A stretch of DNA of 64,000 nucleotides. It comes from Sphingomonas echinoides ATCC 14820 (GTDB lineage: Bacteria; Pseudomonadota; Alphaproteobacteria; Sphingomonadales; Sphingomonadaceae). The DNA is taken from positions 1,908,723 through 1,972,722 of the forward strand of contig NZ_JH584235.1 in NCBI RefSeq assembly GCF_000241465.1. The letters are read 5' to 3'. Below the pieces are notes generated by a model. It was not told the DNA's origin, did no database searches, and saw only the letters and a list, made by a program, of their open reading frames with translations. A program made the translations under genes and the position numbers. Below are positions 24,145 to 55,164 of this stretch, in pieces. The stretch's first letter is position 1. The number at the start of each line of letters is the position of its first letter.

Positions 24145-24233
24145 CCCCTCCCGCTTGCGGGAGGGGTTAGGGGAGGGAATTGGGAAGGACCTGCGACGAT
24201 GCCCTCCCAGCCCCTCCCGCGCGCGGGAGGGGG
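24145..24233. repeat. GC-rich palindromic repeat, family B
   Basis: Two palindromes, CCCCTCCCGCTTGCGGGAGG (from 24145) and CCCCTCCCGCGCGCGGGAGG (in 24210-24233), in inverted arrangement around about 50 bases. The first 33 bases (24145-24177) match the reverse complement of 50398-50430, inside bchB, at all but one base. It sits between kduI and kduD. Confidence 0.75.
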
Positions 24234-48952: not shown

Positions 48953-50576
48953 ATGCAATTGACCGTGTGGACCTATGAAGGCCCGCCGCATGTCGGCGCG
49001 ATGCGCATCGCCACCGCGATGGAGGGCGTGCATTACGTGCTGCACGCGCCGCAGGGCGATACTTATGCCGATCTGCTGTTCACCATGATCGAACGGCGCG
49101 GCAAGCGCCCGCCGGTCACCTACACCACCTTCCAGGCGCGCGATCTCGGCAAGGACACCGCCGACCTGTTCCAGAGCGCCGCGCGCGACGCCTATGCGCG
49201 CTTCGCCCCGCAGGCGCTGCTGGTCGGTGCCTCCTGCACCGCCGAATTGATCCAGGACGATCCCGCTGGCCTCGCCGAAGCGCTGCGCTTGCCGATCCCG
49301 GTGATCGCGCTCGAACTGCCAAGCTATCAGCGCAAGGAGAATTGGGGCGCGGCAGAGACCTTCTACCAATTGGTGCGCGCGCTTGCCGATACCGGGGCGC
49401 GGCCACCGCGCGAAGGTCGGCGGTCCAGCGTCAATCTGCTCGGACCGACCGCACTCGGTTTTCGCCACCGCGACGATGTGGCCGAGATCACGCGCTTGCT
49501 CGCCACGCTTGGCATCGAGGTCAACGTCACCGCGCCGCTCGGCGCGACTCCGGCAGACTTGGCGCGGCTGGGTGACGCCGATTTCAACATCTGCCTCTAT
49601 CCCGAAATCGCCGACACCGCCTGCCGCTGGCTGGAGCGGCAGTTCGGTCAGAAGACCGTGCGCACCGTGCCGATCGGCCATAATGCAACGCGCGACTTCA
49701 TCGCCGAGGTTGCCGCGCTGGCCGACGTCGATCCCGCCGCCGCGTTGGATAGCTCACGCCTGCCCTGGTGGAGCCGCTCGGTCGATTCGACCTATCTCAC
49801 CGGCAAACGCGTCTTCATCTTCGGCGACGCCACCCACGCCATCGCCGCCGCCCGCGTCGCGCGCGACGAACTCGGTTTCGAAGTCGTCGGCCTGGGCTGC
49901 TACAATCGCGAATTCGCCCGCGATCTGCGCGCCGCCGCGGCGGACCATGGGCTCGAACCGCTGATCACCGACGATTATCTCGAAGTCGAAGAGGCGATCG
50001 CCACGCTGCAGCCCGAACTGGTGCTGGGCACGCAAATGGAGCGCCACATCGCCAAACGCCTGCGCATTCCCTGCGCGGTGATCTCGGCCCCGGTCCACGT
50101 GCAGGATTTCCCCGCGCGCTACAGCCCGCAAATGGGGTTTGAAGGGGCGAACGTGCTGTTCGACACCTGGGTGCACCCGCTGGTGATGGGGCTGGAGGAA
50201 CATCTGCTGACGATGTTCCGCGACGATTTCGAATTTTCCGACGCCGCTGGCGCAAGCCATTTGGGGCATGGTGCCTCTGCAATCCTCCCCGGCACGGGGA
50301 GGGGGACCGGCGAAGCCGGTGGAGGGGGCGTGCCCCAAGCGACCACGTCTCCGGTGGCAATCTCCCTCCACCCTTCGCCGGAAGAGGCGAACGGTTCCCC
50401 TCCCCTAGCCCCTCCCGCAAGCGGGAGGGGGACTTGGTCCCCCGAGGCCGAGCGCGAACTGCTCAAAATCCCGTTCTTCGTGCGCGGCAAGGCCCGCCGC
50501 AATACCGAGAAATATGCCGCCGAGATCGGCGTCCGCGCGATCACGCTCGACACCCTCTATGACGCGAAGGCGCATT

Positions 50577-50587
<11 letters not shown>
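48953..50587 (+). CDS. bchB: Light-independent protochlorophyllide reductase subunit B, with repeat-derived linker
   Basis: A 544-residue BchB. The N-terminus reads [15 protein letters not shown], and Asp36 (PQGDTYAD) is at the position of the known fourth cluster ligand. The C-terminal domain is normal ([20 protein letters not shown], then ETLY-like [11 protein letters not shown]). Between them, residues about 444-493 are a Gly/Pro/Ser-rich stretch ([25 protein letters not shown]) encoded by a palindromic repeat that is intergenic elsewhere in the window. It stays in frame without stop codons, so the protein is likely functional with an altered linker. It starts with ATG behind GCGGAGG and overlaps bchH by 11 bases. 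Confidence 0.95.
50281..50431 (+). repeat. Palindromic repeat inserted in frame within bchB
   Basis: The segment begins with CCTCCCCGGCACGGGGAGGG and ACCGGCGAAGCCGGT palindromes and ends with CCCCTCCCGCAAGCGGGAGG. Positions 50398-50430 match the reverse complement of 24145-24177 (between kduI and kduD) at 32 of 33 bases. The element has no stop codon in the bchB frame and keeps the frame on both sides. Confidence 0.8.

Positions 50588-55164
<4,577 letters not shown>

Follow-up and report, generated by a model that had tools for sequence, protein, structure and literature searches.

Introduction

The Rickettsia palindromic elements (RPEs) are palindromes of about 150 bp that belong to ten families, and when they were first reported nearly half of them were located in genomic ORFs, with translational fusion (PMC10969869). 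Intragenic REPs have likewise been reported for a wide range of bacteria, with tRNA synthetase genes as hosts in S. alaskensis and 'E. lithoralis' and uvrA as a host elsewhere, while in recB different REPs occupy about the same site in two Xanthomonas species; repeats of the CGTC type are described as being without a dedicated transposase, and bchB is not named as a host in the parts of that article considered here (PMC3733652).

In the present study, we analysed a window of 64,000 nucleotides from Sphingomonas echinoides ATCC 14820 (contig NZ_JH584235.1), in which bchB carries such a repeat, together with the bchB genes of related genomes. The repeats resemble RPEs in that they are dispersed, palindromic and in frame in unrelated protein genes; they differ in that the host is a free-living, G+C-rich phototroph and that several families are found in the linker of one enzyme. 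In-frame palindromes are thus already known elsewhere and the BchB case joins that kind; it is unusual in that so many unrelated families occur in a single linker. Among the literature matches listed, judged by title and the start of the abstract, none of those on such repeats concerned BchB or the families called A, B and D below, and none of those on BchB concerned its linker; PMC7948495, in the part considered, concerns BchL.

Results and Discussion

The BchB protein has an inter-domain linker

The bchB gene (positions 48953-50587, forward strand) is an open reading frame whose product of 544 residues matches PDB chain 9buo_B over its whole length (830 bits, 7.7e-249), and this product is subunit B of the light-independent (dark-operative) protochlorophyllide reductase. 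It has both the nitrogenase-like core and the C-terminal PCP_red domain of this protein, with matches to PF00148 and PF08369 that are above the respective cut-offs. The core domain (Oxidored_nitro, PF00148) covers residues 12-410 and the PCP_red domain (PF08369) residues 495-539 (positions 50435-50569, forward strand), the latter being encoded in frame and directly 3' of the repeat. These limits bear out the view, put forward in a sequence-only reading of the window, that the repeat is placed between the core and the conserved C-terminal domain. When delimited by the motifs applied here, with the core ending at ..RDDFEF, the linker DNA comprises 74 codons (positions 50237-50458, forward strand).

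In a predicted structure, residues 426-490 are modelled without secondary structure at a pLDDT of about 30. Overall, this model is of moderate quality, with a mean of 65.9; residues 379-425 are poorly modelled too, whereas the C-terminal domain is well modelled. The solved structure 9buo also shows a linker at the same place in the alignment, PDB chain 9efu (419 residues) matches residues 1-423 of BchB only, and the C-terminal part has been deposited alone as 2kru. An ORF that we take to be bchH follows directly 3' of bchB on the same strand.

A composite palindromic repeat is in frame in bchB

The repeat in bchB is a composite palindromic element of 149 bp (positions 50282-50430), which codes in frame for approximately residues 444-493 and which was delimited by its matches to the profiles of two families. 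Family A (17 reference copies of 88-105 bp) carries a 22-base palindrome of the CCCCTCCCGC-GCGGGAGGGG type at each end and has a variable middle, while family B (8 copies of 128-143 bp) is bounded by ATCCTCCCCGG-type ends and contains inner hairpins; copies of both are composite palindromes in the same and in related genomes. Positions 50282-50406 match the left end and the inner stems of family B (59 bits in nhmmer, with a profile from which bchB copies were excluded), and positions 50393-50430 match the terminal palindrome of family A (30 bits), which replaces the usual right end of B. As judged from these matches, the bchB element is a joint of families B and A and not a single repeat. Among the relatives, L031 likewise has B on the left and A on the right, and L041 shows the reverse joint. 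The sequence-only reading had described one palindromic repeat of intergenic type that keeps the frame at residues of about 444-493; its type and its frame stand, but the one repeat has become a joint of two.

The match on which that reading was based was confirmed, as positions 50398-50430 are identical to the reverse complement of positions 24145-24177 at 32 of 33 bases. The second site is part of an A-family element of the same window (positions 24145-24232) that is intergenic by reading. With up to three mismatches allowed, the 33 bases are found at two sites only in the window and at none in 100 dinucleotide shuffles of it. A chance match was dismissed, because no shuffle reached the scores of either the linker or the 33-base match.

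The bchB element starts on a codon boundary, has no stop codon in the coding frame and is open in four of the six frames, although its length is not a multiple of three. Its translation would yield a Gly/Pro/Ser-rich spacer. As single-stranded RNA, positions 50281-50440 fold better than 200 of 200 shuffles (z -4.2). A search of positions 49900-50700 against Rfam returned no family at its gathering score; the two matches obtained (E 0.5-0.7) were far under these scores, and a known structured RNA in bchB was therefore dropped.

The repeats belong to families that are dispersed over many genomes

With the bchB element as the query, at least 68 matches were obtained in its own genome (40 of 87 candidates scored), and a B copy as the query gave 24; strands were counted separately in both cases, so that these are not numbers of elements. 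Two further families, C and D, which show no evident sequence kinship to A or B, were encountered in the linkers of relatives. Of 46 genomes, 33 gave matches to the linker-derived query for family A, 41 to that for B, 40 to that for C and 34 to that for D, frequently with tens of matches per genome. BchB of genomes G117, G213 and G243 has a fifth family in another loop, at about residue 146, and the query for this family matched nine of the ten genomes searched. In the genome of S. echinoides, two A elements (L025 and L030) are interrupted in their right half by another palindromic repeat.

The repeat copies have terminal inverted repeats. Being short, dispersed and bounded by inverted repeats, they resemble MITEs, though no target-site duplication or partner transposase was seen for them. 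Families A, B and D differ from the GTAG and CGTC types of REPs, since they have neither tag by reading; the bchB element, judged by the A and B copies read, has none either, and only family C, which is absent from this element, has CGTC. By reading, family C resembles the CGTC-type REPs in its CGTC tag, 8-bp stem, CCA tail and head-to-head pair. However, its second stem pair is C-G, whereas nearly all CGTC REPs have A and T, as far as the parts of the article on these repeats go (PMC3733652).

Repeats are frequent in BchB linkers but do not account for the linker

The search of congeneric genomes covered 295 genomes. Matches of some kind came from 168, in many cases to the repeat-coded peptide alone, and a reading of the match list left 41 genomes with a clear bchB. 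A scan of named genomes contributed the best 80 of 580 loci, nine of which are contigs already in the congeneric set; within these best 80, the nearest named relatives belong to Sphingomonas and other Sphingomonadales, and the more distant ones to other Pseudomonadota and one Myxococcota bin. The resulting 121 BchB loci (L031-L071 and L081-L160) were parsed. Five parser failures (L062, L126, L130, L136 and L160) and nine duplicates on the same contig were left out, so that 107 distinct genes remained. No profile match above 8.7 bits was present anywhere in the five failed loci, and none above 4.4 bits in L062. The profiles of families A to D were built solely from copies outside bchB (n = 35).

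Every one of the 107 parsed homologues has a linker, with a length of 34-78 residues in the 105 rows that are in frame. Repeat profiles matched 24 of these linkers (9.1-111 bits), whereas the highest score among 2,140 dinucleotide-shuffled linkers was 6.9 bits; 83 linkers were without a detectable repeat. The best-matching family was A in nine cases, B in six, C in three and D in six; none of the linkers assigned to C or D matched the A or B profiles. Nineteen of the 41 congeneric genomes have a repeat linker and 22 have no detectable repeat there (L062 is counted among the 41), while the five other repeat linkers belong to other Sphingomonadales. The copies in L035 and L044 are weak and look decayed. 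When whole genes were scanned, all 24 had a match in the linker, which makes up 9.7% of the bases scanned, the shuffle control covering linkers alone. Two matches were located outside the linker, with 8.5 and 10.4 bits (L038 and L070, respectively), and that in L070 exceeds the weakest linker matches.

Linkers with a repeat are longer than those without (median of 62.5 versus 50 residues, the two out-of-frame rows being left out), and repeats thus do go with longer linkers. The Mann-Whitney p-value of 3e-7 for this difference overstates the evidence, since the rows are related. Linkers of about the same length can nevertheless consist of unrelated DNA, as is the case in L132 (76 residues, no detectable repeat) and in L047 (71 residues, with another family). 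This outcome, which the sequence-only reading had itself named as a refutation, refutes an origin of the linker from the repeat, though not the presence of the repeat. The proposal that the repeat may show how linkers arise was therefore abandoned: the linker is present in all parsed homologues as well as in 9buo, and in most of the homologues it has no detectable repeat.

Repeat content differs between closely related genes

A tree was built by a quick method from the BchB core alone (107 rows), in which 38 of the 104 inner branches are open. On this tree, family state requires a minimum of 16 changes and presence or absence a minimum of 11, a count that is blind to gain versus loss. The starred branches alone force seven changes for absence and four, three, three and four for families A, B, C and D, respectively. 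The family labels are clustered (16 changes against a mean of 23.5 when they are shuffled), which indicates that part of the pattern is due to inheritance. Sister genes also differ from each other: L035 (B) is opposed to L037 (C), and L033 (C) to L036 (none). Family D is present in Sphingomonas and, separately, in Erythrobacteraceae that are surrounded by relatives in which no repeat is detectable.

Alignments of sisters show blocks of unrelated sequence and not clean inserts, the pair L033/L036 looking more like a replacement; insertion, exchange and decay may therefore all act. No target-site duplication or clean empty site was seen, but the closest relative has 87% BchB identity over the whole length and the sister alignments are unclear. 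Between L069 and L070, the element part has five differences, with four residue changes in 50 codons versus four in 200 core codons (counted against neutrality).

The reading frame is mostly kept

The frame is kept in 22 of the 24 repeat linkers. Copies of families B and D have more open frames than base-shuffled sequences (means of 4.5 versus 2.9 of the six frames for eight B copies, and of 5.8 versus 2.9 for five D copies), and A and C copies have about as many as their shuffles. The low number of stop codons in families B and D is therefore probably of additional help in keeping the frame. However, the length is a multiple of three in 12 of the 35 reference copies and not in the 149-bp element, so that further small changes would be needed. 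The maintenance of the frame is hence probably due to selection on the outcome, most likely because frame breaks cost the C-terminal domain.

In genomes G116 (L052/L209) and G243 (L071/L208), a single A palindrome is left in the linker and PCP_red is in the -1 frame. The linker in both cases is 82 bases shorter than that of L039, which holds an in-frame A element. In G243, the frame of the core is free of stop codons through the following gene, presumably bchH, for a total of 1,777 codons. The displaced PCP_red sequences of the two genomes are still conserved, differing at 12 bases in 42 codons, 11 of them at third positions, with one residue change. A second full bchB was not present for either genome in the congeneric match list. 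An error, a recent loss or recoding may lie behind these frame breaks.

Repeats are probably tolerated in a pre-existing linker

The identity of the repeats, the open frame, the linkers of most relatives without a detectable repeat, the four families at one place and the differing sisters can be read from the sequences themselves. Since the repeats keep the frame and related species bear different ones in the same joint, we regard the presence of a repeat in BchB as recurrent, and as an instance of a general kind already known. Our interpretation, of which we are rather confident, is that palindromic repeats are tolerated in a disordered BchB linker that existed before them, and that they are exchanged or lost over time, in the manner of RPEs and intragenic REPs. 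Dispersed sphingomonad repeats would reach the linker by some form of mobilisation, after which recombination with other copies would exchange, shorten or remove them. Such recombination may also give rise to chimeras like the B/A joint of bchB. The repeats would be tolerated and not selected for, and frame-breaking events would be removed since the C-terminal domain is lost with them. As to mobilisation, PF01797 (Y1_Tnp, RAYT/IS200-type), the sole model used, was matched in five of 26 genomes that are part of the 46 searched for repeats, with no match in the other 21 and with one match, on contig 2, in the genome of S. echinoides. Transposition by RAYTs was therefore dropped as an unlikely general cause.

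The clustering of the labels on the core tree would also be expected from one old insertion in an ancestor, with the present variety stemming from ectopic gene conversion and decay instead of repeated insertion. The sites of A and B elements almost coincide, chimeras of the two exist in either order (L031 and L041), and the decayed look of the copies in L035 and L044 fits such a history as well. However, the lack of evident kinship of C and D to A or B, and of any A or B match in the C and D linkers, is difficult to derive from a single insertion, as are the separate occurrence of D in Sphingomonas and in Erythrobacteraceae amid relatives without any detected repeat and the linker without a detectable repeat in the sister of L033. 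We therefore consider one ancestral insertion unlikely.

A selected role of the repeat, either in tuning bchB and the next gene through an mRNA hairpin or in tuning the enzyme through a linker property, appears even less probable. The strong fold of the strand and the same-strand ORF directly after bchB would suit such a role, but a bchB linker without a detectable repeat in 22 of the 41 congeneric genomes, the replacement of one family by another and the lack of an Rfam family at its gathering score in positions 49900-50700 all speak against a selected role. Palindromes of high G+C content are hard to sequence, and G116 and G243 are frame-broken at just such a repeat, so that an assembly or sequencing artefact was also considered. 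This is very hard to reconcile with the intact frame and flanks in S. echinoides, with in-frame repeats at the same place in 21 other genomes, and with an assembly of six contigs that is 100% complete and 0.09% contaminated; we regard an artefact as extremely improbable.

The 41 congeneric genomes, in which a closely related core is joined to varied repeat-coded linkers or to none, amount to a series of linker exchanges made by nature in a well-studied enzyme. Such a series allows tests of selfish repeats as a supply of spacer peptides, of the tuning of the reductase by the length or the letters of the linker, and of the frequency of gene breakage. A further-reaching view, which we put forward with considerable doubt, is that the BchB linker is a rewritable segment that continually exchanges letters with unrelated genome-wide palindromes under selection for length, flexibility and frame, and that the C-terminal domain is still made in G116 and G243. 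If so, the displaced but conserved domain of these genomes would be produced by frameshifting or as a separate chain.

Other enzymes carry in-frame repeats

Host genes in the genome of S. echinoides were looked for at 27 distinct loci with 40 spanning frames, 20 of which were given to Pfam; the loci were those obtained with the bchB element as the query. In a genome this rich in G+C, repeats are often spanned by long frames without a stop, and such frames do not indicate a gene. A gene was therefore counted only if matches to a solved protein flank the repeat on both sides, and this was the case for three genes besides bchB. Methylmalonyl-CoA mutase (L002) has an in-frame copy between its two domains, with an insert of about 40 residues relative to the solved homologue. 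UvrA (L015) and isoleucyl-tRNA synthetase (IleRS, L029) have in-frame palindromic inserts of about 55 and 40 residues, respectively, by the same comparison. L006 (DUF934) was not counted, as the repeat may be an N-terminal extension, and L009, L014 and L017, near gene starts, were judged intergenic by reading.

Among other genomes, four congeneric ones (L072, L074, L075 and L079) have a B-like peptide midway along the beta subunit of glycyl-tRNA synthetase (GlyS). Family B is also matched at the DNA level in L072 and L074, the latter having an insert of about 43 residues relative to the solved homologue. By the look of the match list, further congeneric genomes appear similar at this gene. A peptide similar to the one encoded by the bchB repeat is also contained in leucyl-tRNA synthetase (LeuRS) of one other genome (L076). 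S. alaskensis and 'E. lithoralis', the tRNA synthetases of which were mentioned above as hosts of REPs, are presumably sphingomonads as well.

The insertion of such a repeat into an essential enzyme without loss of frame was called rare in the sequence-only reading. With repeats at this place in 19 of 41 congeneric bchB genes and in-frame copies in at least three other conserved enzymes of the same genome, this is not supported. Several conserved enzymes of free-living sphingomonads are thereby added to the proteins with in-frame palindromic repeats, which are best known from Rickettsia.

Lastly, an A element is located within a gene that we presume to be sufC, at L013 (region C1:3434317 of the S. 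echinoides genome). The frame shifts from 0 to 1 across this element, and this change may reflect a sequencing error or a broken gene.
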